Positions 3,466 through 30,240 of a stretch of DNA of 30,904 nucleotides are shown here, in pieces. This DNA is from a virus. Within the stretch, counting starts at the first letter, position 1, and every line of letters begins with the position of its first letter. Below the pieces are notes generated by a model, which was given only the letters and a program-made list of their open reading frames with translations, had not been told where the DNA came from and did no database searches. The stretch covers positions 1-30,904 of the IMG/VR virus record IMGVR_UViG_3300046007_008787; one strand, given 5' to 3'. Made by a program: the position numbers and the translations under genes.

Positions 3466-4224
3466 ATGACTTACAAAATCTGCCAAGTGGTGTTTAGCAC
3501 CAATCGCTTGGAATATCTTGCTAAAACTTTAAAAAGTCAAAAGCTGCTGGATAGTCAAGGCTGTCAAGTAACCAAAATCCTGTTTGATGATTTTCCACAA
3601 GGCAGGTGCAACGATACTATCACAGCCTTGGCCAAAAGTCATGGTTATCAAATCAAACTACATGAACAAAATCAAGGCATAACAGGCACTTGGCAACATC
3701 TTTTTGACATTGTCAAGCAGGGTGATTTTGATTACATTTGGCATCAAGAAGATGATGCTGAAATTTTGCATGATGTGAAGTTTCAAGATCTCATTGAGAT
3801 CTTGCAGACAAATCCTCAGCTCAGTCAAGTACAACTGAAACGCAACAACTGGTATGCTCATGAAACTCAGCCTGTAACAGCCCTGCCACAAGATACAGTT
3901 TTTAAAAACTATCGAATTGAGCCAGGCAATCCTTATTTTTGGATGATGGCAAGTTTTTATTCCGCTGGGATTGCCCGTGAATATGATCATGTCAAACATC
4001 AAGGCTATCCCAGCGAAGCTACAGTTGCCAACTTCATGCTGAACAAAAATAACAGCCAAACTGGATTGCTTAAGACACACAGCGGTGGCATTATGGTCAA
4101 CCATTTTGGTGAATATAGTCGTGGGCAGAGAGTGAAACCCGGTGAACCGGGATGGGAAAGTTTCCAATATATTGATCCTCGTTTAGATTATAACAGCCGC
4201 ACCGGAGCTCGTTGGCAGGGCTAG
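3466..4224 (+). CDS. GT-A-like glycosyltransferase
   Basis: This 252-residue protein begins with a strand and loop (QVVFSTNRLEYLAKTL) typical of family-2-like GT-A transferases. It carries an acidic metal/nucleotide-sugar motif, E95-D96-D97, in WHQEDDAEIL, at the place where GT-A enzymes have their DxD. NQGITGTWQHLFD near residue 69 resembles the segment N-x-G-x-x-x-x-x-N before that motif. The later part, with MVNHFGEYSRGQR, is less typical. It would transfer a sugar from a nucleotide-sugar donor; the acceptor could be DNA, protein or glycan. ATG 3466, with AAGG just before it, is preferred over TTG 3442, which would overlap the oxygenase gene. Confidence 0.75.
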   Translation: MTYKICQVVFSTNRLEYLAKTLKSQKLLDSQGCQVTKILFDDFPQGRCNDTITALAKSHGYQIKLHEQNQGITGTWQHLFDIVKQGDFDYIWHQEDDAEILHDVKFQDLIEILQTNPQLSQVQLKRNNWYAHETQPVTALPQDTVFKNYRIEPGNPYFWMMASFYSAGIAREYDHVKHQGYPSEATVANFMLNKNNSQTGLLKTHSGGIMVNHFGEYSRGQRVKPGEPGWESFQYIDPRLDYNSRTGARWQG

Positions 4225-4237
4225 CAATAAATATTGC

Positions 4238-4927
4238 ATGAGCTCCAAACTTAACGCCCTAACAAACTTTCACAAAGAACTTAATCCCGAGCTTTGGAAA
4301 AACAATCAACTTGATCGTGAAGTGCGATACAAGCTGTTGCAAATTGCTCAGGCGTTTATCCAATACATCAACATTGATGATCTTGATCTTGAAGACATTA
4401 CCATAAGTGGTAGTAATTGCAGTTTCAACTACACTCCTCAAAGTGATATTGATTTACACTTGGTAGTAGACAGTTCCAGTCGCTGTTGGCCGCATTTACA
4501 AGAACTTTACATGGCCAAAAAAAGTCTATTCAACGACAATCACGATATAACCATTCAAGGACAGCCTGTGGAAGTTTATGTGCAGGACAGTCAACAGCCA
4601 CACTTTAGCAATGGTATTTTCAGTGTATTGAACAACAAATGGATCAAAAAACCCCAAGCTATTTCAGCTAAGATTGACCGCACAAATGTCCTAGACAAAT
4701 ACCGTGATGTAAAACGCCAACTGCAAAAAGTTATTAAAAATGGCGATCAAGATGAAATGCAAAAAATGCAGGAAAAACTGCGTGTCATGCGCAAGCAGGG
4801 TTTGGAAAAGCATGGCGAGTTTGGAACTGAAAACTTGGTTTTCAAACTACTACGTAGAGACGGCAGCATGGATCGCTTGTGGAAAAAGCTACAGCGCACC
4901 GTGGATCAAAAGTTAAGTCTTAATTAG
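4238..4927 (+). CDS. Pol-beta-superfamily nucleotidyltransferase
   Basis: The 229-residue protein has the superfamily signature G58-S-N followed by YTPQSD70-I-D72-L-H, where the Gly-Ser and two Asp residues hold the nucleotide and two metal ions. A helical region full of Lys, Gln and Met follows (about residues 140-200). The C-terminal segment is basic. Members add nucleotides to RNA, proteins or small molecules, and the target here is unknown. T4-like phages of aquatic bacteria often carry such a gene. No clear Shine-Dalgarno precedes ATG 4238, which lies 13 bases after the glycosyltransferase stop, so translational coupling is likely. Confidence 0.85.
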   Translation: MSSKLNALTNFHKELNPELWKNNQLDREVRYKLLQIAQAFIQYINIDDLDLEDITISGSNCSFNYTPQSDIDLHLVVDSSSRCWPHLQELYMAKKSLFNDNHDITIQGQPVEVYVQDSQQPHFSNGIFSVLNNKWIKKPQAISAKIDRTNVLDKYRDVKRQLQKVIKNGDQDEMQKMQEKLRVMRKQGLEKHGEFGTENLVFKLLRRDGSMDRLWKKLQRTVDQKLSLN

Positions 4928-4953
4928 ACAGTGAACCTTGTGAGATTTATAAT
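4924..4953 (+). promoter_or_regulatory. Sigma70-like promoter next to a start codon
   Basis: TTAGAC (4924-4929) and a perfect TATAAT (4948-4953) are 18 bases apart, at the end of the nucleotidyltransferase gene. The next ATG (4959) begins only 6 bases after the -10 box, so transcription would start almost at that ATG. Either the small membrane protein is made from a leaderless mRNA, or the promoter serves the HNH gene at 5162. Confidence 0.5.
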
Positions 4954-4958
4954 CTAAA

Positions 4959-5147
4959 ATGAAACTATGGTTGTGGATGGCCTTTTGTTTTGGCACTAGC
5001 TTTATATCTGCAGGATTATGCGGACAGTGGTGCTTTGATGTTCACAACGATAGTCTCATGAGTTTTGCTACATTCCATGTGGTGTTTTGGACACTTGTTG
5101 TGTTGTTTTATTGGGCAACTTGTTTTATAATGCCCAAGAACTCCTAG
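4959..5147 (+). CDS. Small two-helix membrane protein
   Basis: This 62-residue ORF is strongly hydrophobic. A first membrane segment spans about residues 3-20 (MAFCFGTSFISAGLC), then a short polar part with CFDVHNDS, then a second segment at about residues 36-56 (FHVVFWTLVVLFYWA). It ends in PKNS. It could be a holin-like or host-membrane protein, but two helices alone do not show this. No ribosome site is visible before ATG 4959. ATG 4977 is a possible later start and would leave most of the first helix. Function unknown. Confidence 0.6.
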   Translation: MKLWLWMAFCFGTSFISAGLCGQWCFDVHNDSLMSFATFHVVFWTLVVLFYWATCFIMPKNS

Positions 5148-5161
5148 ATTAACGAACAGTC

Positions 5162-5713
5162 ATGGCACATACTCTGATCTTGAATCAGGATTTCACGCCT
5201 TTAAGCGTGATTCCTTTAAGCACACGTAACTGGCAAGATGCCATGCGTTCGTGGTTTGGTGACGAAACTCGTCCCGTGGAGTTTTACCAAGACTGGAGAA
5301 TACACAGCACTAGGCAAAGCTGGCCAGTTCCCAGTGTCATGGCATGCAACAAATACATTCGCAAGAAACCCGGAGTTAGATACAGTCGCAGCAACTTGCT
5401 CATGCGTGATCGACACCAGTGCCAGTATTGCGGATGTGCATTGGATTTGCAGTCAGTTACAGTGGACCATGTTTTACCACGTGTAAAAGGCGGTATCACA
5501 CGATGGGAAAACGTCGTCAGTGCGTGCGGACATTGCAACAGTGTCAAAGGGCATAAAACCCATTTAAAGCCACGTGTAAGACCCATAAAACCCGACTACT
5601 TTCAACTAGTTGCTATTGCCTGCCAGCGGCCTATTACTATTCCACATAGAAGCTGGATACCTTATTTGCCTTGGTCCCCGGATTTAATCACTGTAAAAGA
5701 AACTTACACGTAA
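5162..5713 (+). CDS. HNH endonuclease (McrA-like family)
   Basis: The 183-residue protein has a zinc-binding pair C87-x-x-C90 (CQYCG), then the ββα-metal core with D102-H103 (VDHVLPRVKGG), N117 (WENVV), and C122-x-x-C125-N126 (CGHCNSVKG). The N-terminal half (LILNQDFTPLSVI) and the segment PVPSV match the layout of the common bacterial HNH family usually annotated as McrA-like, rather than a phage homing enzyme. It would cut or nick DNA with a metal-activated His; the target is unknown. No good ribosome site lies before ATG 5162. There is no intron or split gene nearby to suggest homing. Confidence 0.88.
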   Translation: MAHTLILNQDFTPLSVIPLSTRNWQDAMRSWFGDETRPVEFYQDWRIHSTRQSWPVPSVMACNKYIRKKPGVRYSRSNLLMRDRHQCQYCGCALDLQSVTVDHVLPRVKGGITRWENVVSACGHCNSVKGHKTHLKPRVRPIKPDYFQLVAIACQRPITIPHRSWIPYLPWSPDLITVKETYT

Positions 5714-12346: not shown

Positions 12347-15300
12347 TTATAAACTCTCCTGTTGTCCGCGTCCGTCATATACTGCTGTGCCTTGAGCATG
12401 ACTGATTTGTGTTGCTATTGCATCTTGTAGCAAGGTTGTAAATCTAACATTGAAGCTGCCCAACACAGGTGCAACATTGAATACAACATTACTGCCTACA
12501 ACAGTGTAATCTTGTCCTGCTGCTTGTATATTGCCGTTGTTCCAAACACTGAGTCGGGTTGTGCCATTGCTCAGGGCAAATGTATTTGCAACTCCTGTGC
12601 CATTTGCAAACGAACTTTGGTAAGTCTGTCTTGGCAAACCACTTGTAGCACGATAGTTTCTCCAAATATTACGTAGTATTGCGCGATTGGGATAAGTGAT
12701 AGTTGGTGTGTAATCTATTTGCCACCATGCTATTAACTCATCTTGAATCCAAACATACCCGGGTTGAGGACCTTGAGGCATGGTAAGCACTGTGTAATCT
12801 GCAATGTCTAGGTAATCACTTGTTGCGTAAACTGTTTGCAACACTGTTGTGGCGGTGGCGAGATTTTTAGTTATTTCCACACCTGCGTTTACCAACACTC
12901 GTGTTGTGGATTCCGTTTGATCTTGCAAGCCCTGCGCATAGTAAACAGCTACAGGATTTCCTGGATTACTTGAGAACACCAAGGTGTTTCCAGAAATCAC
13001 AAAGTCATTGCCAGTTACTGCCAGTTGTCCAGCATGGTAAACTTGCAGAGATTCAATATTCAGAGGTGTTTGCGCCAAATGATATGTGTTACCTGTGCTT
13101 GTAAACTGTTCTAACTGCCAGTTGTAACTGGGATCTTGAGTCCAAGTTAACACACGCAAGGTATCTGAGTTATTGATAAATCCTGCACTGTTGCCTTGTC
13201 CAGTTGTGCTCCAGGGCAGTGCAGGATTGTTCAATATAACTAGATCATTGCCTTGTATTTTCCAATCATAACCATAACTGTCATTTACATAAACTATTTC
13301 AATAACATCATTTATGTTCAAGGTAGATGTTATCGTTACAGTGTTAGTTGCACTGTCTACACTATATTCACCTTCAGGTTCCAATTGCCTTTGTTGTTGA
13401 TACACAGCAAAATAATCAGTAAACACCGGATCAACATAAGGTATAGTAAGTGCATATGTTTGGATTGCAGTGTTAGTAATGGCAATAACCTGCCGGGGCG
13501 GAGCCGGCATCACACGCTGGGAAGTCAAGTTAAACACTTGCACACTTGCATAAGGGCTTCTGCTAGCCCCGGGAGGTCTGTCAAGTGTATAAGATGTGCT
13601 AGCTGTTATAGGAATATCTTGTTGATGGGGTTGACTCCAATAAGCTGTTTGAAAAACATCAACAACCACTTGTGCTCCAGTAGCAGGAGTTGGTGTCAAA
13701 ACCACATTGGTTCCAGATACTGTAATGTTTGCAGAGGGATAGGTATTGCCATCCACTGTGGCTCTAACCCAGCTGGCGCTGCCAATAGCCACAGTAGTAG
13801 CAAAACTGTTAGAAATACCATCAGCTATTGTGATACCATGATGTTGTCGTGTATCAAAAAGCACATTAAAGCTTGCAAGATTGCCAACATGAGGAGTATT
13901 CTCTCTGTCAGTGTCTTTAACAGGCAGTGAAGGTTTCACCAGCCAAATGCCGGGGTTGGATATTGATACGTTTGCTACACCCCACATGTTGCTTGTGTCA
14001 ATAGTTGCATTGACGCCCAGGCCATTTGTGGTCCATGTAGTGGCTGGTGGAATACTGGTATAATATCCCGGGGTTACAAACTCTACCTCAAGAACATTAC
14101 CTTGCACAGTTGTATTGGTAACTTGCCATATTGCAGGAGCTGGAGTGGAAACATCATGCCAAATCAAATCACCAACTACATAGTTGTTTCCAGAGTTTTG
14201 TATTTGAGTATTTTGTGCTGCTACTGCTGTAACTGTGAGACGGCAATCAATATTGGGATCAATCTCTTGTAGATAGATTATGTTGCCGGAAAAATATCCT
14301 GATCCAGGATTATCAATCTTTACACTGCGAGTAGTGATTCCAGCACCTGTTCCCCCAAAACTCCATGTAACAAGTTGTTCGTTTGCAACTGGAGGATTGA
14401 CAAAAACAAAATTACCAGTTGCATAGTTGACGAAAAAGTCCTGTTCCACAGTCAACAAGTTACCAGCTTGCCAAGCAATGACCGATGAGTTGTTAATGGG
14501 AACTACGCCCAAGTTGTAATGAACTACAGCACTGTTTGTTGTGTAAATCTTGTTGGCAACAGTAAATCCATCCTGCTGTTGCTGGAATATATTAAACTTT
14601 TGACTTTCTGGTATTCTAACCACAGCTAGTTCGGGAGGACGATTGTCATTTACATCTGGCTGTAGGAAGTTGTATCCGTCGTAAACAGTGTCATATTCAC
14701 CAAGTGGTGCTGCATTAAATGTTTGTCCATGGAACAACACATATACTTTGTTGGTTGTAGGTGCAGTGAGTTCCAAATGTCTGCCGCCCCATTGTGGAAG
14801 CACACTTGCACCTGTTCCTGTTACACCAGTATAGGGCTTGGGTATTAACGCAACAGGAGTTAGTGGGCAAATGTCCCATGCTCCAGGGTCAACTACAGTT
14901 AAAGTTAAAATCCCACCTGTGCCATTTACTGTGGCAACTTCCAGTTCTGCAGGAACAAGATTTGTTCCTCCAGTCACCCACAATCTATTACCCACAGCAT
15001 AACCCAAGCCAGGATCAACTGGTTGCGCTTGAGTGACCCAGTTGGGTATTATCCAATCTTGACCATATACACCTATTGCACTGTCAATCCACACTACAGT
15101 CTGACTGGGACTTTGTGGAATATAACTCAAGTTAAAACTGCTGCTACCGCCAGCTTCAGGAGTGAATATATCGTATTCAGGTATTTCACCACCGCTGATG
15201 ATTACATCAAGATAATCATAAATGCTGTCGCTGTTGCTGTCCCAACCTGTGTAATGATTCCAAGGAGTTGAGTTCCAACCTTCACCCCAGTTCAAGGGCA

Positions 15301-18300
15301 GTGAGTCCAGTATTAGTCCCTTGTATTGTGCTTGTAGGAGTTCTTTTATGTCGCTAATAGGCGGCATTTGTGGTTGAGGCTGATAGCTATTGCGTATGCG
15401 AGCCGCCGCCCCCCAGTTTTCACCGTCTTCTGTTTTAGAGAATCCAGTTATATCTTCCCAAACATAGTCCCAACCATAAGCTTCACTGCTAACACGATCA
15501 AAATACACCCGGATATTTGGTTGTCTTATTAAATGTCTTGAAGCTTGATACTGGTATTGAGCCAACCAATCTTTATATCGAGTTGAGTTGGCCATGTAAG
15601 CAGCTTGTTGAGCGTTGTTTTCATCTAATATTTCAGTTGTGCCGTTGGCCAACAGATAGGGCGGTTTATCAAAGTCTGTTACACGGAACGATGCTGAATC
15701 AAGCAAAGTTCTGCTGTTGATAAACTCACGTATTTTGGCAGTGTAGGGTTTGATTTCATTTACATAAGCCAACAAACTGTTGACTTCATCTTGTTGATAC
15801 AACACACTGGTGCTCAAGGGCACACCAAACCCACGCAAAGTCACATAGCGTGTTTTAGTCAACCAATCCACAAACACCTGTTCACTTAGCACATAGTTCA
15901 ACATGCTGGTAAACAACGTGTTTTGTTGTAAAACATCAAATACAACGTCCAACAAGCCCTGAATGATTTGTTGAAAGCAAGGTGCAGGTGATGCATCAAA
16001 TAATGTGCTATCAAAAGCAGCTTGGTCCCAACACCAGTTGTTCAAGCTGTTGTCGTAAACACTGGGCAAGATTTCAATGCTGCCATCTTGTTGTGCAACA
16101 AGAGTCCACTGTTGGTCCAGCCAGGCATACCATTGCCATTTGCCAGTTCCATCATTAAGCACTTTAACTATTTCCACAGTAGTGCCATCAATAACATCTA
16201 GATCGCGTATCAAGGGCACAGTTTGTGATATTGTGCTTGTGGCAAGGTAACCTTGGGCATACCAGTTAACATATTGCCAGTAAAGCTCAGTGTTCCAAGC
16301 TTGCAACTGCAACAAATTCCAAATGTTGTCACCTTGCCATTGATAAATTGCCCAGGGCGTTGCTGTGACTAAAACTCGTGCGCCCAAATACAAATCAGGT
16401 ATTAATAGGTCTCTATCTGCAATAGTGGGCACAACAAAGTCATACTGGCTGCTGTCAGGCACGGGTTCTTGTGAGAAAAAGTAGTTGCGCCAAGTTGTCT
16501 TGTTGGGATCGGTTACAAGAGGGTCATCCAAGTTTGCTATGAGAGCGTTGGCTACAGTGACAAAGTTAGCGCCTGCTGCTATGGGATCCTGAAACCATGT
16601 TTGACGGGGGCGAACTAAGTTACCCAAGCGTTGTGGTGCAGCAAGTCTGTAATCAGGAACATCGTTGCCTAAACCGTCAAAACCCAGCAAGCTATCAATG
16701 CAACGTTGCCAAAACTGTTGAGGAATTACACTGCGACTGTCACCGGGTCTAAACAACTGCCATTGACTGTGAACAGTGGGATCTTCACTGGCGTCCTGCC
16801 AAGCAACTTGCAGTATTTTTGCACTGCCAGCCAGCTTATTACGCACATTGGCTACTAGCAAGTTGGTGCTATCGATAGCAGCCCACCAGGGAATTTGTTG
16901 ATTGCCAGTGTTGGTTATAACATTGCTGATTTCCTGTGTGGTCAGTCGGCGCCAAGCCGCAGCAGGTTGCATGGTGCTGTTTTTCACCCAGAAATAATAC
17001 CATATTTGTGCTCGTCCCACACTGGTATAGATTGTTTGCTCACACCAACTAGGTGCGCTGGGGTTATATACTTCACCGCTGGGTATAAAAGTCACGCCTT
17101 CCAAAGTAACTGGTTGTCCTGCGGCTGCTAAACTTGCCCAGTCTGTGGGCAGAACTGGACTGCGAATCCATTCATAAACTGATACTTCCGAGCCAGGAGC
17201 CAGTTGGCCCCAATGCTGTATGCGATATTTCAAATCACCTTGATGATAATCCACATAACGCACACTGCCCAAGTCCCACCAAGTTTCACCCACATGCTCA
17301 TCAGCCCAAGCTTGATCATCCTGCAAGTCAATTTCATCATTTATGCTTTTGTTGTATTGAGCAGGATCGTTTTCACGCTTGTAAACAAGTTCTTGTTCAG
17401 CCAAGCTGGGTATTTGACCTTGAATGGGATCAAAGTATTGCAACACAGTGCTGGGTTGATTATAAGCACTGGTAAACAGCACACAACTTTGCATGAGTTG
17501 GCTGTCCACCATGAGTGTTTGGTTACGTATGGGCAACCATGTGGTGCCAATGCGTGCATATACAGTCCAAGCACCGGTTATTTGATCGCCTTGGTCCACA
17601 AACACACGCAGCCCTTGTGGCAGGGGTTCTGTTGTGGCAAATGCATCGCGCTGAGCAACGTTGGTAAATCTTATGGGGTAGTATTTCAAGATTTTACCAC
17701 CTTGCCCGTTTTCAAAAGTGCTTATATCTATTTGAAAACTTTGTGCAGAGACATCAACAGCACTGACAGTGAATGTGCCAGTCAAGGCAGCTACGTTTTG
17801 AACACATGTCAACACAATGATATCGTTGTCGGCAAGTGTAAGGCTTTGGTTTACAAACACAGTTGTGGGGCTGGCAGTTGTTTGACTGCTAAGTGTTCGA
17901 TTAATTGTCAAACCAGTGTCTAGCAGCGCCCAAACTGTCCAACTGCCAGATGCTGTGCTGAACTGCCAAACTGTGTCGTTTACTGCAACGGGGCGCGTGC
18001 TGCCGAGTTTGTCGTCCCAAAGTGCCACAAGCTCAGTTTGGTCAAAAACTTGCCAAGATGTTTCACCCAGTTGCACGTAACCTGCTGTGGGAACATCAGT
18101 AGCTGGCTGGGGTTGATAACTGTCTCGTAGAGGAAAACGGTTGGTCACATAACTTGTGGGAGGAGTTACAATACGACTGTCACCGGGTGTAATACTCAAT
18201 ACATCATCACTGGGAATATCGGCATCAACACTACTGAACAAGTTGATCCATTGTATGGTGTTGGTTACATCTTGTGGATTTAAATAAAACTCCACTAGGT

Positions 18301-21300
18301 TGTTGACCGCTACACCACCAAACTGTCCCAAACGCAGGGCAAATTCTTCAAAGTAATCAAATGTGCTATCTTGAGGAATCAATCCAGTGTTTCGCAGTAT
18401 AGCGCCCAAGCTGTTGAATGTGCCTTTTTGTCGGATGTATCCTTGGAAAAACTCAAACTCTGTGGCATCTTCCAACAGCAAATCACGTAGATAATCGCGT
18501 TGTTGGTAACTAAACTGATGTTTAGCCATGCGATTCAAAACAGGATTGGTTACTACACTTTGACTGTTAATTGACTCTTGTTGTGCTGTTGTTCCATTTA
18601 TTTTCACAGTATAGGGTTTAGCTTGATCAATGTTGAAAAACCTGGTGAAATCCTTGGCTGTTTTATCAAAGTTGCTGGTTAAAGCCCAGGTGTTACCAGC
18701 TTGCGGAACAAGAAAATACCCCGGCGCATCCAAACGTCCAGTCCAATTTCGTGTTCTATGCGTGTAAACCTTTACTCGTGGTTGATATTGGTAAAATAAA
18801 GGTTGATAAACTATGTCGTTGAACTGTGTGACATTGTCTAAAATCATCACATGTTCCAGTGTGTTGACAAACAACCGTGCTCCAAAAATAGTATCAGTGT
18901 TTATGGGGCGAATGGTTATTTCTGTATCTTCACGTAGCGTTTCCAAGTTGCGTTCAACTATGGGTGTGCCTGTTTTATTAAGTATGGGATAAACACCACT
19001 AATAGTGCCGGGAACAAACTGTATTTGTCCTGTTAGACGTCGTAGTGTAACTTGATTACTGCCGGGACTCAAAGCAATAAAGTTGTTGTTGCCCCAAGAT
19101 CCCTGGCACCAATAAACAAACTCTCTGGCACTATATTGCCAATCAACTATGCGTCCGTTGTCATCGTTTACTCTATCAAAAACCCAACCCTGGGCAGTCA
19201 ACCAACGTCCAAACCCTGTTACTAGGTCTACAACTTGCTGAGGAGTTTCAAGCACTGTTCCATAAAGCACAGTTTCTGTTGTATCCAAGCCCTGTTGCCA
19301 AAATGTCACTCGCAAGTTACCGAGAGTTTCCACTTGTCGACGCCCAGCAACGTTAGGAGGAATAACAGTGAAGGCACTGCTGTTGTTGTCATAACCAAAT
19401 ACTTTGTAGCCACCAGTTACTTTCTGTACAACAACGCCACTGTAAAAATATTCACCTATACTACCGCTTCTATACAAGTAGACATTGCGATTTTCAGCAG
19501 GCACAATACGACTGCTGAAGTTCACTTGACCAAAACTATCAACTAACACTCGCAGTGTGTCACTTTGCACATAACCAGCGAACTTGTGGGCAAGATTGAC
19601 GTCTGTGCCTCGTATTACGTTGCCAAGGTAGTTGGTTACATCTTGTCCTTTGCTGACCAAGTATTCACTGAACCAATGCTGTAATCCGCAGCTACCAAAA
19701 TAAGTGGTTGTTTGATATTCACTTAAACTTGCAGGTAGGTTCAGCAAGCTGGGATTTTCTCTATGTGCTAGGAACTCTCCGCTGCTTTTTCTTGTTTGTG
19801 TGTCTGTATAAACAAACTGCGGCCAGGGAGTATCTGCAAACAGAGTTTCTGTTCGTGCAACATCCCAGTTGATATCAACAAACTCAGCGGGTTTTGTCAA
19901 ATATCCTGTAAATGCCTGAGTAAATGTGCGACTTTGACTTTTTCTCCATGCTTGTTCAACTGGAGCACCGTCACCAAAATCCCATTCACTTGCCGCTGCT
20001 TGTGTGCTGGGCAAATATTGAACTATACCAGCTGCAAGCGGAGGCAAAAGCTCACCTTGAGTGCCAACAGGGATACACTGCAACAGTCCCGGACGTGCCC
20101 ATGCAGGCCAATAGCCAGCAGTGCTACCTTGACGTATCAATCCCTCACTTAGATCCTGCCATAATTTGGTGTTGCCGTTTGTGTAAGGTAATACACCATA
20201 TTCTTCAGTCCACCATGTGGGTTGTTGACTAAAGCCCAACATTTCCCAGGGGCGAATGTCAGGACGATCAGTATCGTAAAACAATTGATAGATACCACGC
20301 CAATAACCTGGCACAGGTTGACCATTTAGATCAGGGACTGTGCGATAGTTAAAGCTAAACTGGTCGTTCAAATCAAAACTTGTGTTTGCTGACACATTAA
20401 CTTGGTTTGCAACAGCCCAGCGTTCAAACATGGGACGTTGTATTTGGATTATTTCAGCGCGGGTGTAATCACTTGTGCGCCATTTACCGGGCAGGCGAGT
20501 GGTAATGTTGTATGTAACTTGATTGTCAGGATTACTGTATTTTGGCAGCAGGTTATTGTAAAGGTTGAGTTCAAACTGCAACCAAGCTGCTGCTATTCCT
20601 GAACTTAACAATGCAGGATTGCTAGTTGCAGTTGCGCCTGTTGTAATCTCAGCTAAGGGCAATCCATCACTGTCAATCATGGTTATTTCCGCACCATCGT
20701 GTGTTTGGATTACCAAGGGATTGTTTGGCTGTGTTGTATCAACAAACACGCGAGGATAATATGCACCTGCGAGTCCCAATCGAGTGCCAGTTGCAGGTAT
20801 CCAAGTGCTGGTTGTTGCCTGCTGTGAACAATATGCACCAGCTGGTTGAGTTAAATCATACCCACTGTTGGCCCAGGGACTTCGAGCAGTTTTACCCAAG
20901 TTTACTTGACGCAGGGCATCTTGCACCCAAACTTGCGGATTTTGATTTAGATTGTAGCCTTGATTTGCGCTGAGATTGAATAGGGAATTGATAAAACGGC
21001 TGTAAAAAGTTTGATATTGTTTGTCAGCCCAAGTAATCACCAATTGTGGATCAGTATAGCCTGTAATACTGTTAATATCTGTTTGCGGAGTAGAGTTTAA
21101 TACCCCTAGTTTGAGCATGGGTGCGTTGTGTTGTAAAATATAAGTGCCCAGGCTGGGATTTCTGGCAGTATCGCGCCAGTTATTAAATCCCAAACTATCA
21201 CCAGTAAAACCAGTTTGATTAGCTATCATGCTGGACAAATGTTCTAGGTATTCACCACGGCTTACAGCACTTATATCTTGGTTGTTGGGATTTCTAGCTA

Positions 21301-23236
21301 GGTTCCAGGGTGTCTGCCAAACACCTTGTTGTGTTGTGGGCACTTGGTTGTTGCTCCAAACGCTGATAAAATATCTATCCTGCTCTTGAGCATTATTGAC
21401 CAAGACAACACTGGTGTTCTCGACATTATAATCAGTGTTTTGCAACAACTGTGAGAGAACACCTTGACGATTTCTAATGACATTTACACTGGGGACATCG
21501 TTTGCCTCATTAGCAGGTATTTCCACGCCTGTGGGCATGAGCAGGGCATTGTTGGGATAAGCTAAACCTGAAAATACTTTGTTTTGCTCGCCTACACCCA
21601 AAAGTGTTCCTTGATCCATGACGTATTGCAAATCAAGATACTGTCGGCTGTCACTTTGAGCTTGATACCATCCGTTGGCATATTGTTCCGGGACAAAATC
21701 ATCAGCAGCTATGCGGGAATATTTCCAGCCCCCAATCGCTGTGGCAATGTTGTCAAGCAAATATGTCCACGTGTCAGTTTGTTGATGGTTTTCAAATATC
21801 CAATCACCAAACTCATTTAGTTCCACACTTATACCCAAATAAGCATCTGTTGTGCGGAAGTCGCTTGTTTGATAACTGAACAACAAGCTGCCTGTAAATG
21901 TGCTACCGGGGTATGCACCTAGATCATTTAAGGCAATGCCGGAACCATCATAAAGCATCCAAAGTGGACGACTACCAGTCGATACACTTTGTCCCAATTG
22001 CCAAGACGCACCTGTATAGTGCCATGTCTCAATAGCACCTGTTGTTTCTATCAATAAAACTTGATCACCCAGTTGTGCTAGTGTGCTGCTGTCCGAGGGT
22101 GAGCGCGGTTGTGCGGTTAACACACATTGTCCAATAGTGGATAAACCACTTACTTGGTATATTCTGTTGTTTACATGAGAATCCTGATCATTTATAACCA
22201 AGATTAAATCACCATCTTGCAAAGATCGACCATTTATTGCGGGATTGGCAAGCCCTGTGTAAGTTGCAATAAAGTTGGGATCACTGCTTGTGAAGTTAAT
22301 ATAACCACGGCTGGTTGTGCCTTGGTTCCCTAACTCCAAGTTGCGTAGATATTGCAAAATAGGCCGTTGCGGAGGCAGGGCAAAAGTTTCAGTTAGGCTG
22401 TTTTGTGGATTTTCCACAGCCAGTGTTTGGCTGACATTCAAGACATCTAAATGGAACCATCTGTTGGCTAAACTATAACTGTTGCCGTTTAAGGTTCCAC
22501 GTTCTTGCACATGATATATTGGCCCTTGATCCACAAACACTCGCAAACCATTTGTGACATCACTTGCCCAATCGTCGTTCACTAGTAGGATTTTTTCACC
22601 AACATTGCAAACTATCCAGTCCTGGTTGTTGTATTCAGGACGACTGTCAGCTAGGAATCTTATTTTCAATCCTGTTGTAAAAATAATAGAACCTGTTTGT
22701 GATGTTCCATTGCTGCCATCAGCGTTGGCTATTGCATAACTGCCAGTGTAAGTGTAACTTGACTGCCCGCGAATATTTTGATAAAAGTCAGTTACATCAA
22801 GCAAATCAATACGTCGAGGACCTTGTGGAACCCAGCGATATTGATTCCAGTTTAAAAACAAGTCGATGTCTACTGGAGGACTCCAGCTATAGTAGCGATT
22901 GTTAAACAAACGCTCGGGAGTTGAAGTTATTGCACCTTGCAACCGCAGTTTGTTTAACAAGTCATCATAAAACAAAATGTTTTGCACTGCACCATTTTGT
23001 GGATCACGACTGACCACAGTGGGTGAAAGTTGATATTTTTCTCTATCGCTAGTGGGCTCGGGAACATAAAAATCTGTAACAGGATTGTAATAGACTGGAT
23101 GACTGCCCACATACCCAGCTAGAAACTCACTGTTTTCTGGTTGGAACAAATGGTCCACAGTGGCATTGAAAAACTTCGTTAATGCTGCTGTTTGATTAAC
23201 TTGAGGAAGTAACTCTACTATTTTGCGATTAGCCAT
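12347..23236 (-). CDS. Giant tail/baseplate structural protein (3629 aa)
   Basis: One uninterrupted 10.9-kb frame starts at ATG 23236, overlapping the gp6 stop by 8 bases. The N-terminus (about residues 1-230) includes FFNATVDHLFQPENSEFLAG, YVGSHPVYYNPVTDFYVPEP and FYDDLLNKLRLQGA, which fits the very large virion proteins that follow gp6 in some aquatic T4-like phages. GLRVFVDQG occurs at about residues 229 and 1873, with a related GARVLV segment near 2285, so part of the protein is built from repeats. From about 2730, GxGYxxGN/D-type modules recur, and from about 2918 to the end there are about five degenerate beta modules with a pattern such as GNDFVISGNTLVFSSNPG. It is rich in Gln, Trp, Tyr and Asn. 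It has no signal peptide or catalytic motif. By position it may replace or extend the gp7/gp8 wedge parts. Confidence 0.9.
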   Translation of the reverse strand: MANRKIVELLPQVNQTAALTKFFNATVDHLFQPENSEFLAGYVGSHPVYYNPVTDFYVPEPTSDREKYQLSPTVVSRDPQNGAVQNILFYDDLLNKLRLQGAITSTPERLFNNRYYSWSPPVDIDLFLNWNQYRWVPQGPRRIDLLDVTDFYQNIRGQSSYTYTGSYAIANADGSNGTSQTGSIIFTTGLKIRFLADSRPEYNNQDWIVCNVGEKILLVNDDWASDVTNGLRVFVDQGPIYHVQERGTLNGNSYSLANRWFHLDVLNVSQTLAVENPQNSLTETFALPPQRPILQYLRNLELGNQGTTSRGYINFTSSDPNFIATYTGLANPAINGRSLQDGDLILVINDQDSHVNNRIYQVSGLSTIGQCVLTAQPRSPSDSSTLAQLGDQVLLIETTGAIETWHYTGASWQLGQSVSTGSRPLWMLYDGSGIALNDLGAYPGSTFTGSLLFSYQTSDFRTTDAYLGISVELNEFGDWIFENHQQTDTWTYLLDNIATAIGGWKYSRIAADDFVPEQYANGWYQAQSDSRQYLDLQYVMDQGTLLGVGEQNKVFSGLAYPNNALLMPTGVEIPANEANDVPSVNVIRNRQGVLSQLLQNTDYNVENTSVVLVNNAQEQDRYFISVWSNNQVPTTQQGVWQTPWNLARNPNNQDISAVSRGEYLEHLSSMIANQTGFTGDSLGFNNWRDTARNPSLGTYILQHNAPMLKLGVLNSTPQTDINSITGYTDPQLVITWADKQYQTFYSRFINSLFNLSANQGYNLNQNPQVWVQDALRQVNLGKTARSPWANSGYDLTQPAGAYCSQQATTSTWIPATGTRLGLAGAYYPRVFVDTTQPNNPLVIQTHDGAEITMIDSDGLPLAEITTGATATSNPALLSSGIAAAWLQFELNLYNNLLPKYSNPDNQVTYNITTRLPGKWRTSDYTRAEIIQIQRPMFERWAVANQVNVSANTSFDLNDQFSFNYRTVPDLNGQPVPGYWRGIYQLFYDTDRPDIRPWEMLGFSQQPTWWTEEYGVLPYTNGNTKLWQDLSEGLIRQGSTAGYWPAWARPGLLQCIPVGTQGELLPPLAAGIVQYLPSTQAAASEWDFGDGAPVEQAWRKSQSRTFTQAFTGYLTKPAEFVDINWDVARTETLFADTPWPQFVYTDTQTRKSSGEFLAHRENPSLLNLPASLSEYQTTTYFGSCGLQHWFSEYLVSKGQDVTNYLGNVIRGTDVNLAHKFAGYVQSDTLRVLVDSFGQVNFSSRIVPAENRNVYLYRSGSIGEYFYSGVVVQKVTGGYKVFGYDNNSSAFTVIPPNVAGRRQVETLGNLRVTFWQQGLDTTETVLYGTVLETPQQVVDLVTGFGRWLTAQGWVFDRVNDDNGRIVDWQYSAREFVYWCQGSWGNNNFIALSPGSNQVTLRRLTGQIQFVPGTISGVYPILNKTGTPIVERNLETLREDTEITIRPINTDTIFGARLFVNTLEHVMILDNVTQFNDIVYQPLFYQYQPRVKVYTHRTRNWTGRLDAPGYFLVPQAGNTWALTSNFDKTAKDFTRFFNIDQAKPYTVKINGTTAQQESINSQSVVTNPVLNRMAKHQFSYQQRDYLRDLLLEDATEFEFFQGYIRQKGTFNSLGAILRNTGLIPQDSTFDYFEEFALRLGQFGGVAVNNLVEFYLNPQDVTNTIQWINLFSSVDADIPSDDVLSITPGDSRIVTPPTSYVTNRFPLRDSYQPQPATDVPTAGYVQLGETSWQVFDQTELVALWDDKLGSTRPVAVNDTVWQFSTASGSWTVWALLDTGLTINRTLSSQTTASPTTVFVNQSLTLADNDIIVLTCVQNVAALTGTFTVSAVDVSAQSFQIDISTFENGQGGKILKYYPIRFTNVAQRDAFATTEPLPQGLRVFVDQGDQITGAWTVYARIGTTWLPIRNQTLMVDSQLMQSCVLFTSAYNQPSTVLQYFDPIQGQIPSLAEQELVYKRENDPAQYNKSINDEIDLQDDQAWADEHVGETWWDLGSVRYVDYHQGDLKYRIQHWGQLAPGSEVSVYEWIRSPVLPTDWASLAAAGQPVTLEGVTFIPSGEVYNPSAPSWCEQTIYTSVGRAQIWYYFWVKNSTMQPAAAWRRLTTQEISNVITNTGNQQIPWWAAIDSTNLLVANVRNKLAGSAKILQVAWQDASEDPTVHSQWQLFRPGDSRSVIPQQFWQRCIDSLLGFDGLGNDVPDYRLAAPQRLGNLVRPRQTWFQDPIAAGANFVTVANALIANLDDPLVTDPNKTTWRNYFFSQEPVPDSSQYDFVVPTIADRDLLIPDLYLGARVLVTATPWAIYQWQGDNIWNLLQLQAWNTELYWQYVNWYAQGYLATSTISQTVPLIRDLDVIDGTTVEIVKVLNDGTGKWQWYAWLDQQWTLVAQQDGSIEILPSVYDNSLNNWCWDQAAFDSTLFDASPAPCFQQIIQGLLDVVFDVLQQNTLFTSMLNYVLSEQVFVDWLTKTRYVTLRGFGVPLSTSVLYQQDEVNSLLAYVNEIKPYTAKIREFINSRTLLDSASFRVTDFDKPPYLLANGTTEILDENNAQQAAYMANSTRYKDWLAQYQYQASRHLIRQPNIRVYFDRVSSEAYGWDYVWEDITGFSKTEDGENWGAAARIRNSYQPQPQMPPISDIKELLQAQYKGLILDSLPLNWGEGWNSTPWNHYTGWDSNSDSIYDYLDVIISGGEIPEYDIFTPEAGGSSSFNLSYIPQSPSQTVVWIDSAIGVYGQDWIIPNWVTQAQPVDPGLGYAVGNRLWVTGGTNLVPAELEVATVNGTGGILTLTVVDPGAWDICPLTPVALIPKPYTGVTGTGASVLPQWGGRHLELTAPTTNKVYVLFHGQTFNAAPLGEYDTVYDGYNFLQPDVNDNRPPELAVVRIPESQKFNIFQQQQDGFTVANKIYTTNSAVVHYNLGVVPINNSSVIAWQAGNLLTVEQDFFVNYATGNFVFVNPPVANEQLVTWSFGGTGAGITTRSVKIDNPGSGYFSGNIIYLQEIDPNIDCRLTVTAVAAQNTQIQNSGNNYVVGDLIWHDVSTPAPAIWQVTNTTVQGNVLEVEFVTPGYYTSIPPATTWTTNGLGVNATIDTSNMWGVANVSISNPGIWLVKPSLPVKDTDRENTPHVGNLASFNVLFDTRQHHGITIADGISNSFATTVAIGSASWVRATVDGNTYPSANITVSGTNVVLTPTPATGAQVVVDVFQTAYWSQPHQQDIPITASTSYTLDRPPGASRSPYASVQVFNLTSQRVMPAPPRQVIAITNTAIQTYALTIPYVDPVFTDYFAVYQQQRQLEPEGEYSVDSATNTVTITSTLNINDVIEIVYVNDSYGYDWKIQGNDLVILNNPALPWSTTGQGNSAGFINNSDTLRVLTWTQDPSYNWQLEQFTSTGNTYHLAQTPLNIESLQVYHAGQLAVTGNDFVISGNTLVFSSNPGNPVAVYYAQGLQDQTESTTRVLVNAGVEITKNLATATTVLQTVYATSDYLDIADYTVLTMPQGPQPGYVWIQDELIAWWQIDYTPTITYPNRAILRNIWRNYRATSGLPRQTYQSSFANGTGVANTFALSNGTTRLSVWNNGNIQAAGQDYTVVGSNVVFNVAPVLGSFNVRFTTLLQDAIATQISHAQGTAVYDGRGQQESL

Positions 23237-27165: not shown

Positions 27166-27357
27166 TTAATCACACATCAAAAAGTCCCTACGTTGCTGAG
27201 CAGTGGTCCAATTTTGCACAAAAAAAGTTTGTTTGTGTCCGCGAGCTGACAGTCGTAGAGCTAGCAAGTCAGCCTCGTATTGGCTAAGCTTGTCTGCTAC
27301 TGCATACCTACAACCGTTGTCGTCCTGGCGGACCACCATGAAATGTTGAGTTTCCAT
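27166..27357 (-). CDS. Small hypothetical protein, SPOR-like pattern
   Basis: The 63-residue protein starts at ATG 27357, two bases after the stop of the preceding gene. The pattern HFMVVRQDDNGCRYAV, then LSQYEADLLALRLSARG, then HKQTFFVQNW is strand-helix-strand and recalls small SPOR-like βαβ domains, but the match is by feel only. No signal peptide or membrane segment is present. It is the last gene before the terminator, so it is made from the same transcript as the zinc-ribbon and HARP-like genes. Function unknown. Confidence 0.65.
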   Translation of the reverse strand: METQHFMVVRQDDNGCRYAVADKLSQYEADLLALRLSARGHKQTFFVQNWTTAQQRRDFLMCD

Positions 27358-27359
27358 GA

Positions 27360-27641
27360 TCAGTTCACATAGAGCACTTCTGTGCCCTCTTCGTCTTCGT
27401 CATGTTCCATCATCATCCACATTTGATAGAGATCAATAAACTCAGGCCAAATTGCTGTGCATTGGGGACAAATCTTGTCAGCCCAGGAATTACCTACCAC
27501 AGCCTCACAGCCTCTTACGGGGACAAGGCACTTGCCACACCACCGTCGGAGATCATCAAAAACAGCGCCATGGGGCGTGGGCATGTCGAGAAAAGCTTCT
27601 TTGAGAAGCTCACGGTCAAAACCTTCAGGAAGCGAGTGCAT
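27360..27641 (-). CDS. Small putative zinc-ribbon protein
   Basis: The 93-residue protein begins at ATG 27641, with AAGGAG 7 bases upstream inside the end of the HARP-like gene (17-base overlap). It carries C35-x-x-C38 (CGKC) and C58-x-x-C61 (CPQC), a four-Cys arrangement suited to one zinc ion, with an extra C45. The C-terminal part is strongly acidic (EHDEDEEGTE). Such proteins can bind nucleic acid or act as adapters. Place and coupling suggest that it works with the HARP-like protein and perhaps with the SNF2 ATPase. Confidence 0.7.
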   Translation of the reverse strand: MHSLPEGFDRELLKEAFLDMPTPHGAVFDDLRRWCGKCLVPVRGCEAVVGNSWADKICPQCTAIWPEFIDLYQMWMMMEHDEDEEGTEVLYVN

Positions 27642-28347
27642 CTTGGAACTCCTTGAGAATATCAGGATCAGCAATGGCAACTGTAATCATGCCATCGTCA
27701 ACAACAATGTTCTGTCCGCCGTTAAGTGCCAGCATCATGCGGCTGTCGCTGGTTTTGGTTTGTATTTTACGGACATATTCGTTAAAACGTTCTTCCACGG
27801 AAAAGCGAAACCGCTCCGCTACATCCATGATCAGCCAGATGCTGGTGGTATTGACCGGTACGGTCCACACTTTGTTTTGCGGGTCCCAGCTGGCATAAAA
27901 ACGCTTGTCGCCGTGCGAGCCACGAATGGTTTTCATAGCTGCAACCAGCTCGGGGTCATAGCGAAACTTGAAAACTGCCAGGGTGTCCTTGCTGACAAGC
28001 TCGCGGTCCGCAGGCTTGTTGTTGGGGCTAGCCTCGGGAGCAGGGGCAGCAGCAGGATCATAGGGCTGGGCCTTAAACACAGGATTAACCAGGAAAGCCT
28101 GCACCACAGCCTCGCCGCCCAACTGCCGCCGGTACTTGTTGACCAGCTTGAGTGCGCCCTGCGCTTGCTTGACAGTGTAGGCACGCCCTTGCTGGGCACG
28201 CTGAGCCAGGCTGTGCCCAAACTCTGTGTCTGCACCCGAAAAGCCCTGTGCGTCATGCTTGTGCGCACCATCGCACACACCAGCCAAGGACATGATCATG
28301 CCCTCAACGGTACGGGTTGCTGTGTGATCCACCATCCAGTGTTTCAA
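27625..28347 (-). CDS. HARP-like domain protein
   Basis: The 240-residue protein has a segment at about residues 127-167, with FKFRYDPELVAAMKTI and then WDPQNKVWTVPVN. This is the layout of the HARP/SMARCAL1-type substrate-recognition domain, which in other proteins precedes an SNF2 motor: strand, Y-D-P-E-helix, then W-D-x-x-x-K-x-W-x-V-P-V. An upstream part (LAQRAQQGRAYTVKQAQGAL, residues about 47-66) looks like the L-x-x-x-Q-a-x-A-L helix often found beside such domains. A Pro/Ala linker lies near 100-112. I chose TTG 28347 because GGAG lies 6 bases upstream; ATG 28335 lacks a site. It is divergent from the SNF2 gene and has a strong promoter. The domain call is from pattern memory. Confidence 0.65.
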   Translation of the reverse strand: MKHWMVDHTATRTVEGMIMSLAGVCDGAHKHDAQGFSGADTEFGHSLAQRAQQGRAYTVKQAQGALKLVNKYRRQLGGEAVVQAFLVNPVFKAQPYDPAAAPAPEASPNNKPADRELVSKDTLAVFKFRYDPELVAAMKTIRGSHGDKRFYASWDPQNKVWTVPVNTTSIWLIMDVAERFRFSVEERFNEYVRKIQTKTSDSRMMLALNGGQNIVVDDGMITVAIADPDILKEFQDALAS

Positions 28348-28372
28348 GGCATGCTCCTTGCTTTACCTTGCC

Positions 28373-28400
28373 ATACTAGCACGTATGACCCAGCTGTCAA
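28373..28400 (-). promoter_or_regulatory. Promoter for the HARP-like gene group
   Basis: On the minus strand a perfect TTGACA (28400-28395) is followed after 16 bases by TAGTAT (28378-28373), four of six matches to the -10 consensus. It lies about 26 bases before TTG 28347, leaving a short leader with GGAG. Confidence 0.65.
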
Positions 28401-28487
28401 CCTTTTTCCTGATTTAATTTTGATCCCCGCTAGCGTGCCCACGTAGCATATTTAACCATGAACCGCACGACAGAGCGCGGAAATCGC

Positions 28488-28550
28488 TAAGCTATTGTTT
28501 TTACAACCGTAAGTTTGCACTGTAAGCTGTTGTTTTTGCTGACCTAAGCT
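28488..28550. repeat. Spaced TAAGYT repeats in divergent region
   Basis: The intergenic region 28348-28647 holds two imperfect 28-base direct repeats (21 of 28 identical), starting at 28488 and 28523. Each has TAAGCT-N-TTGTTTTT-N-C. TAAGCT or TAAGTT recurs at 28488, 28510, 28523 and 28545, with steps of 22, 13 and 22 bases. Operators or iteron-like sites are possible. The rest of the 300-base region holds the two promoters and no ORF I support. Confidence 0.55.
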
Positions 28551-28592
28551 GGATTTCATCATGAGGCTGCTACCATGCAGGCATTTTTTTGG

Positions 28593-28620
28593 TTGACGTT
28601 TTAGGCAACCGTGCTATATA
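28593..28620 (+). promoter_or_regulatory. Promoter for the SNF2 gene
   Basis: TTGACG (28593-28598) and TATATA (28615-28620) are 16 bases apart, 28 bases before ATG 28648. This is a fair sigma70-like promoter. Transcription would start near 28627. Confidence 0.6.
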
Positions 28621-28647
28621 TGACTACAGTGCATCACGGGGCTTGAA

Positions 28648-30240
28648 ATGCTTCACGTTTCCGCTACAGTGCCCAACGCCCGCAAGGTGTATCAGCTGTG
28701 CGTCAAGCACCGCTTGCCCGTGCCGGATGCGTTGGTTAGCGTGCTTAACAGCAACACGCAGGCTTGCGATATCCCGGGCTTTAGTTTTCAGCTCAAGGAA
28801 TATCAAGCGCATGGCGTGGCTTATCTCGAACGCTGGGACGGCAACGTGCTGCTGGCTGATGAGCCCGGACTGGGCAAGACCGCGCAGGTCATGGTGTATG
28901 CTTGGCAAAACCGCCGCTTTCCCATGCTGGTGGTGCTGCCCAAGACCTTGCTCTTGAACTGGCGGCGGGAAATCACGCTCATGCTGGGCAGCCAGCTCAG
29001 CGTGCTGATTGTGGGCTTTGTGCCCAGCAAAAAGCGTCAGGCGCAGCTTAGGGCACAATGGCCGCATGTGAGTTTCAGCCGTGTACCGCAGCCGGGTTAT
29101 GATGTAACCCTTATCAACTACGACATTGTCGAGCGCAACCTGGCTGCACTGGAAGCGCAAAACTACGATTATGTTGTGGCTGATGAAAGCCACAAGATCA
29201 AAAATCCCAAAGCCCATCGCACGCAGGCTTTTTTGCGGCTGGTGACAGGACGTGAGGAAATTCCCCGGCAGCGTGGCCAGTTTCGTCCGGTGCATGATGC
29301 TGTGCCGCATGTGACGTTCTGCACGGGCACGCCCATGTTGAATCGGCCTGTTGAGCTGTGGACAACTGTGAACACGTTGGCTGGCTGGGTGCCGCAGTTT
29401 GAAAACTTTTTTAACTTTGCTTCTAAGTTCTGCAATGCCCATAAGACCCGCTGGGGCTGGGACTTTAACGGCAGCAGCAACGAAGCCGAGATCAACACGC
29501 TGTTGACTGAAACTTGCATGCTGCGTCGTCTCAAGCAGGACGTGCTCCGGGATTTGCCGCCCAAGACTTTTGTTACGGTTCCCCTGGAGTTTGATCGCGC
29601 TGAGTATGATGCTGTAGCAGCCGCTTTTGAGGGCTCGGGCGCTTGGAAGCAGGGCATGGAAACCCTGGTTCGGCATGGCGGCAATGCTGCCAAGAGCGAC
29701 GAAGCCATCGTGGCGCTGGGCAAGTGCCGTGAGATTGCTGCATATGCCAAGCTGGACAATGCCGTGGAATGGATCATGGACTTTGTCGAGCAGGGTGAAA
29801 AGCTTGTGGTGTTTGCACATCACCAGCGCATGGTTGATCAAGTTGCTGAACGTCTCGCAGCGGCTAATATCGGCGTGCGAGTGATTCGCGGCGGTGTTAG
29901 CTTGGAGCAGCGTGCCCAGGCAGCGCAGGACTTCCAAACTCGCAATGATGTGCAGGTGATTGTCTTGAACATTGCCAGTGCAGGCTTTGGCATCACGCTC
30001 ACTGCGGCGCGGGCGTGTGCGTTTCTCCAGCTGCCTTGGACCCCGGGTGATCTCATCCAAGCTGCGGATCGTGTTCACCGCATCGGGCAGCAGGACAACG
30101 TCACTGTTTACAATCTTGTTGCCGAGGGCACTGTGGAAGAGGACATAGGTGAACTGATCATGAGCAAGGCGGCTGTGAGCAATGCAGTTGTTGATGGCGG
30201 CGCCAACCGCGAGTTGGCTGATTTGAATCTGGGCCAGTAA
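28648..30240 (+). CDS. SNF2-family DNA-dependent ATPase/helicase
   Basis: The 530-residue protein has the SNF2 motor in order: Q-like QLKEYQAHG, motif I DEPGLGKT at 71-78, motif II D179-E-S-H182, motif III T226-G-T-P229, then RRLKQDVLRDLPPK, and the second lobe with NIASAGFGITL and motif VI DRVHRIGQ at 474-481. Such proteins translocate on double-stranded DNA and remodel, anneal or restart DNA structures. SMARCAL1-like annealing activity is suggested by the divergent HARP-like gene. There is no N-terminal zinc finger or HARP domain in this chain: the motor begins within the first about 45 residues. It is GC-rich and uses CTG and GCC codons more than the tail genes. A T4 UvsW-like role in recombination is an alternative. 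Confidence 0.92.
   Translation: MLHVSATVPNARKVYQLCVKHRLPVPDALVSVLNSNTQACDIPGFSFQLKEYQAHGVAYLERWDGNVLLADEPGLGKTAQVMVYAWQNRRFPMLVVLPKTLLLNWRREITLMLGSQLSVLIVGFVPSKKRQAQLRAQWPHVSFSRVPQPGYDVTLINYDIVERNLAALEAQNYDYVVADESHKIKNPKAHRTQAFLRLVTGREEIPRQRGQFRPVHDAVPHVTFCTGTPMLNRPVELWTTVNTLAGWVPQFENFFNFASKFCNAHKTRWGWDFNGSSNEAEINTLLTETCMLRRLKQDVLRDLPPKTFVTVPLEFDRAEYDAVAAAFEGSGAWKQGMETLVRHGGNAAKSDEAIVALGKCREIAAYAKLDNAVEWIMDFVEQGEKLVVFAHHQRMVDQVAERLAAANIGVRVIRGGVSLEQRAQAAQDFQTRNDVQVIVLNIASAGFGITLTAARACAFLQLPWTPGDLIQAADRVHRIGQQDNVTVYNLVAEGTVEEDIGELIMSKAAVSNAVVDGGANRELADLNLGQ

Follow-up and report, generated by a model that had tools for sequence, protein, structure and literature searches.

A HARP-SNF2 enzyme likely split between two neighbouring phage genes

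Introduction

Proteins of the SMARCAL1/HARP type carry their HARP unit or units (PF07443) directly before an SNF2 motor. In the accessible text of PMC4035279, the second HARP domain of human HARP forms a minimal annealing helicase together with the motor, the fly protein has one HARP domain, and the vertebrate SMARCAL1/HARP proteins have two, the number that we also suppose for the ancestor of the system described here. Phage T4 uses UvsW for fork regression and annealing, as the available portions of PMC3016281 and PMC3409536 describe, and several split phage enzymes (Aeh1 nrdA, gene 43A/43B, T4 topoisomerase) reassemble from two polypeptides (PMC2988022, in the sections available). Here, we analyze a viral record of 30,904 bases (IMG/VR record IMGVR_UViG_3300046007_008787; this whole stretch is hereafter the window), at the right end of which two genes, A and B, stand back to back in divergent orientation with 300 bp between them. 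The initial annotation had proposed that they could encode a split HARP-SNF2 enzyme. We find this core idea likely, with two corrections: the divergence of the genes is incidental, and the motor is not wholly without HARP. The HARP-before-motor order agrees with SMARCAL1/HARP; the differences are that two genes are involved here, A lies below Pfam HARP detection, an extra domain (DGA/GF) is present, and the first HARP of A (HARP1) has an 8-residue insert.

27625..28347, minus strand: gene A, 240 aa, with a helical DGA/GF domain, HARP1 and a strand-strand-helix tail; TTG start behind AAGGAG
28087..28314, minus strand: DGA/GF domain of A, residues 12-87; tblastn matches to SNF2 helicases of Thermus phages and plasmids; helical in the model
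27760..28002, minus strand: HARP1 of A, residues 116-196; assigned from hhalign to fused HARPs, alignment and a structure match to 4o66
27628..27726, minus strand: tail of A, residues 208-240; strand-strand-helix by prediction, put forward as the first half of a second HARP (HARP2)
28648..30240, plus strand: gene B, SNF2 motor, 530 aa
28648..28755, plus strand: head of B, residues 1-36; resembles the second half of HARP (hhalign), with a strand and helices in a relative's model
28780..30207, plus strand: two-lobe SNF2 motor of B, residues 45-520, with DEPGLGKT, DESH and HRIGQ motifs

Results

HARP identity of gene A

A had been called HARP-like from two stretches, YDPELV (residues 130-135) and WDPQNKVWTVPV (residues 154-165). 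Among 25 aligned A sequences, 38-98% identical to that of the window, W154, W161 and P164 are invariant and K159 is nearly so. The folded parts of A show a ratio of non-synonymous to synonymous substitution rates (dN/dS) of 0.05-0.33 where dS is unsaturated. Chance open reading frames were ruled out by the conservation of A and B, and an assembly artefact by the recurrence of the same layout in several contigs. The relatives of A have an ATG start at about the residue where the window has TTG.

HARP1 of A aligned over its whole length with ten HARP units from fused phage and plasmid helicases (hhalign probability 98.8, E 1.1e-16), units that we delimited ourselves from the translations; relative to the other HARPs aligned, it has the 8-residue insert (..GEHKGxKFW..). 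Pfam HARP appeared below cut-off in four of six fused viral-contig proteins (L137, 2.8e-4; L136, 0.0046; L138, 0.010; L132, 0.012; L-numbers are locus labels within this analysis) and in two of six further phage or plasmid proteins (0.02 and 0.067). A profile built from 11 HARPs of phages and plasmids, including two A rows, found the SMARCAL1 HARP structure 4o66 among 177,635 PDB sequences at E 0.0058. The top row above it, dTor (E 2.1e-7), was rejected as a repeat-protein artefact, as no single stretch of it passes. Compared with the printed 4o66 stretch, HARP1 profiled from A sequences alone scored 21.3, a value reached by 0/200 shuffles (maximum 17.3), at a probability of only 27%; nine fused HARPs scored 37.6 (94.7% probability).

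The AlphaFold2 model of A (25 rows; predicted local distance difference test (pLDDT) 79.7, predicted template modelling score (pTM) 0.43) matched 4o66 in VIA at row 43 (Z 3.4, 24% identity, 2.4 Å across 50 of 67 residues). It also matched AYP68137, a 'HepA-related protein' of the cultured Bacillus phage vB_BcoS-136 (BFVD: probability 0.94, E 2.4e-3, rank 6); this 245-aa protein contains two HARPs and scores 44.4 bits with Pfam HARP. That A carries a HARP domain is thus indicated by an indirect but consistent route through fused relatives and AYP68137, and to this extent the proposed identity holds.

Gene B and the position of the split

The description of B as a 530-aa SNF2 motor was confirmed: the motor is complete (Pfam SNF2 E 2.8e-27, Helicase_C 1.5e-16), its motifs are intact, and it matches phrog_62 (DNA helicase) at E 5.4e-101 over positions 688-1140 of 1881. 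The claim that this motor lacks HARP had to be revised, because the first ~36 residues of B look like the second half of HARP by hhalign and shuffles. We slid 235 windows of 36 columns from the A and B families along a HARP profile holding no A sequence. The best 21 of the 235 came from the HARP1 region of A, and the B head was next, with a score of 21.4 at HARP columns 43-70 of 72 (180 background windows: mean 8.6, standard deviation 2.1, maximum 13.5). The A tail scored 14.5 at HARP columns 3-13, just over the background maximum. The score of the B head against the motor-adjacent HARP of L135, a single-chain relative, was reached by 0/100 shuffles; the same held for a profile joining tail and head, in which the aligned part was the B head alone. 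We consider it well supported by sequence comparison that the B head corresponds to the second half of a HARP domain.

The A tail may be the first half of HARP2, a suggestion drawn mainly from models. In the A model the tail folds as strand-strand-helix, like the start of HARP1. In L059, 81 nt separate the two genes, which share a frame; we folded its A and B as a single read-through chain (pLDDT 78.6, pTM 0.62, 21 rows). The tail formed strands at 219-223 and 226-231 and a helix at 234-245, and the head a strand at 275-280 and helices at 283-295 and 302-310; together they give the HARP order minus its middle hairpin. The L059 motor matched SNF2 structures in VIA; the matches listed are SNF2-type motors and do not address the HARP2 idea. 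An actual read-through or frameshift fusion of A and B was rejected because B starts independently, often after a Shine-Dalgarno-like sequence, and its frame relative to A varies between loci.

The split point is constant in the distinct proteins that cover the profile ends: A stops soon after the same helix (36 A proteins), and B likely starts at the same column (33 B proteins). dN/dS was 0.19-0.33 in the A tail where dS is unsaturated and 0.10-0.33 in the B head in two closer pairs.

Linkage of A and B across relatives

A scan with a B profile confirmed 263 relatives, the best 80 of which were kept and gave 79 loci: 72 of the B family and seven distant SNF2 proteins (L130-L132, L135-L138). 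An automatic tally listed six of the seven distant proteins as lacking A. In 64 of the 72 B-family loci, A lies on the 5' side of B at a distance of about 1.3 kb or less (co-directional in 48, divergent in 16); the remaining eight lack A, and there the contig breaks off no more than 1,068 nt before B. Starting from A, B was present in 29/30 loci, and the exception is cut inside A. The two were separate genes in the A-B pairs found. Many contigs are near copies, which lowers the number of independent cases; the distinct proteins covering the profile ends number 36 for A and 33 for B. The expected co-occurrence in related genomes is therefore present. The divergent layout is real in the window and is not essential, since A and B run co-directionally in 48 of the 64 linked loci. 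The family belongs to environmental phages, and some members are very large: contigs of 328,603, 309,756 and 452,799 bases each gave a single match to A and a single match to B.

Fused relatives and origin of the split

Fused HARP-SNF2 homologs, looked for as a sign that the two genes belong together, occur in phages, viral contigs and plasmids, and are annotated as helicases. They contain the same kinds of domain as A and B in a single chain (L136, L137, Thermus phage MN1, a Mycolicibacterium fortuitum plasmid). L136 joins DGA (by eye), HARP and SNF2 in one 860-aa frame, L137, L138, L130 and L132 have HARP-SNF2 in one chain, and in L135 the motor follows two HARP-like units. The N-termini of L130 and L135 also show a DUF6011 match before the HARP units, a place that Z, the small gene after A, might take in the split form. 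The M. fortuitum plasmid protein is ordered DGA, HARP-like repeats, motor, as is a Rhodococcus plasmid protein (repeat counts by eye), so that L136 and these two actinobacterial plasmids share the DGA-HARP-motor order of A and B. The Thermus and Rhodothermus phage proteins differ in having the DGA domain after the motor (HARP-motor-DGA).

In a midpoint-rooted tree of 40 motors, the 20 split motors fall on one side of a branch with 100/100 support. Nearest to this clade are L135, then L130/L132, L131 and L136, with L135 and L131 on long branches; the 20 rows grouped as fused include four without a delimited HARP unit (L131, CcrSC, Ruegeria, Shewanella). Within the split clade, divergent layouts appear at two distinct positions (L001/L011/L022 and L123), suggesting two gene inversions from a co-directional ancestor. 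The divergence of A and B is therefore most likely secondary and incidental to the split enzyme.

The DGA/GF domain

DGA/GF is our own label, from ..CDGA..D.QGFSGAD..FGHSLA.. in A residues 12-87. The domain matched the N-terminus of plasmid SNF2 helicases (tblastn, best E 2e-8) and, weakly, the C-terminus of Thermus phage SNF2 helicases (E 0.06 and 0.8). It is helical in the A model, and no Pfam family exceeded cut-off over it in the proteins scanned. Two peptide patterns run over 84,980 bacterial and archaeal genomes gave one confirmed match, to the DGA part alone, in a protein of a Methanothrix metagenome-assembled genome that looks primase-like by eye. The A/B region gave nothing at the DNA level in 50,697 phage records, in which A had just two weak matches, both fused Thermus helicases (E limit 1), and Z, the small gene following A, had none. 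The N-terminal part of the M. fortuitum helicase as query gave no match up to E 0.1. A structural match pointed to Agrobacterium phage Atu_ph07; searches of its record for A, B and DGA came back empty, an outcome that says little. A Bosea plasmid (L034:3983-4915) encodes a free-standing DGA-domain protein of 310 aa. Some stretches of it look HARP-like by eye, annotated RecQ and RuvB genes are nearby, and it had no Pfam match under 0.01.

Weighing the explanations

Considering the HARP identity of A, the fused relatives, the A-B linkage and the single clade of split motors, a split HARP-SNF2 enzyme is the most likely explanation. Neither of the outcomes that would have spoken most strongly for dropping the idea was observed: a HARP identity was reached, indirectly, and the two genes do co-occur.

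Several observations weigh against it. The profile search had a divided outcome: profile-profile and structure comparisons reached HARP, and Pfam HARP (PF07443) had no match on A, on three A relatives scanned, in eight A-bearing records, or in any of eight further proteins, seven of them SNF2 helicases (E up to 1). In Foldseek, A had no PDB match under E 0.001, and the VIA Z values are low, of a size that common arrangements also produce, with 42 rows above 4o66 and MotA among the top. For the A tail, the similarity to the L135 motor-adjacent HARP was reached by 9/100 shuffles and is not significant, though the register is the expected one, and hhalign of the tail alone against HARP1 found no match. 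The read-through model represents L059 and not the window; its linker has pLDDT <50 and a stray short strand, and it shows the order of the elements, not strand pairing between A tail and B head. The B head evolves fast in distant pairs (dN/dS 0.63-0.82).

The same observations on the tail lend themselves to another account, to which we give a clear minority share of belief: A would be a free-standing DNA-junction protein (DGA plus HARP), linked to B through phage replication and not completing it, with the tail and head halves as relics or independent caps. Besides the lack of significant sequence similarity of the A tail to HARP, AYP68137 speaks for it, being likewise a free-standing HARP protein of similar length with no motor and a DGA-like start by eye, which the DGA profile does not confirm (probability 1.2%). 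SNF2 had no match in the 160,590-base genome of vB_BcoS-136, a further point against the split enzyme, so such HARP-HARP proteins can exist without a phage motor. AYP68137 differs from A in having two whole HARPs. Set against the free-standing account are the position of A, which stays 5' of B in 64/64 linked loci despite inversions and gene insertions, and the split at the same place in the sequences kept, with a tail under the constraint given above.

It is improbable that A is a double-wing DNA-binding regulator like the T4 MotA C-terminal domain, with B an unrelated neighbour and HARP a mere resemblance of fold. The best VIA match of the A model, at row 1, is the XPB N-terminal half (2fz4, Z 4.8 over 55 residues), and the MotA C-terminal domain (6k4y_M) ties with it (Z 4.8, 61 residues). 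However, sequence profiles reach HARP, the nine PDB matches of the HARP profile include no MotA chain, fused HARP-SNF2 relatives exist, and A is tightly linked to a motor.

A host-takeover or anti-defence module of A, B and Z, also raised initially, is very improbable and found no support: the B motor resembles the defence SNF2 helicases ZorD, DpdE and DrmD in PADLOC and Z is a small zinc-type protein, but the resemblance is limited to the shared motor, A and Z had no PADLOC match up to E 1, and the fused relatives are annotated as helicases.

Gene Z and neighbouring genes

Open reading frame positions agree with the earlier placement of A and B and of a small four-Cys gene, Z, after A; the coupling of Z to A is likewise evident from their overlap.

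27360..27641, minus strand: gene Z, encoding 93 aa with two CxxC pairs; shares 17 nt with the end of A
28348..28647, no strand: divergent intergenic region, 300 bp; promoter-like site for A at 28400-28373 (minus)

The likely start of Z is an ATG at 27641, inside the end of A and behind AAGGAG. The Z profile was found in 43/79 loci, and Z sits between A and B in several. Promoter-like sites in the intergenic region are no commoner than in shuffles. The window also contains tail and baseplate genes (phrog_10646, phrog_261, tail fibres). Beside the baseplate genes runs a single 3,629-aa frame (12347-23236, minus) without a Pfam match over cut-off. Beyond Z, a 63-aa gene (27166-27357, minus) with a weak phrog_16136 match (E 0.0017) stays near A/Z in many relatives. 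In L023 the divergent A and B are separated by a NUDIX hydrolase gene (4848-5465, minus). L052 has, at a short distance upstream of A, an aspartate/ornithine carbamoyltransferase-like gene (3467-4366; Pfam OTCace_N, OTCace), which a similarly placed frame in L059 (622-1554) resembles by eye.

Discussion

We consider it probable that A and B are two pieces of one split HARP-SNF2 enzyme, and we propose that together they would complete HARP2 and act as a fork-remodelling or annealing motor. The ancestor would have been a single chain of DGA domain, HARP1, HARP2 and SNF2 motor, close to some present relatives, and a single break between the first and second halves of the motor-proximal HARP2 would have yielded two genes. 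A may hold branched DNA through its DGA and HARP1 parts, while its strand-strand-helix tail would dock on the B head and complete HARP2 beside the motor. The assembled ATPase might then rewind or branch-migrate DNA at stalled forks or phage recombination intermediates, like T4 UvsW or SMARCAL1. Such docking in trans is our conjecture, and the DNA structure specificity and annealing activity would follow by analogy. Completion of HARP in trans is plausible, short of probable. We give a comparable, less than even, weight to a fuller version, in which HARP2 is cut between two proteins so that the motor assembles only once the partner tail completes it; this would be a split-domain switch in fork remodelling that has survived what are probably two inversions, in phages of jumbo size. 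A and B need not be the only fork remodeller, as two of three large relatives have a RecA match and another phrog_16 helicase.

T4 UvsW, which regresses forks and anneals strands, is the phage motor to which we liken A/B, whose own activity is presumed; UvsW, whose N-domain may resemble MotA, differs in being a single chain and not SNF2. The SMARCAL1/HARP family also has an RPA-binding motif; RPA itself is not known from bacteria and phages. In the sections of PMC2988022 available, the splits of the known phage enzymes are linked to homing endonucleases or to an intercistronic insert, whereas A and B of the window are only 300 bp apart and would be cut inside a DNA-binding domain. A literature search covering titles and abstract beginnings, with subscription papers mostly outside it, returned nothing on HARP proteins of phages or on a HARP-SNF2 enzyme in split form, and the word HARP is not used in the accessible part of the paper on vB_BcoS-136. 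New here is that B keeps what looks, from its sequence, like half a HARP.

Overall, these results place HARP-SNF2 enzymes in phages and point to a DGA/GF domain that travels with them and is unnamed by Pfam in the proteins scanned. With A/B, the list of split phage enzymes may gain a DNA remodeller. The HARP domain beside the motor is needed by human and fly annealing helicases, and a natural split inside HARP would allow a direct test of its effect on an SNF2 motor, as the halves could be mixed, swapped or withheld.

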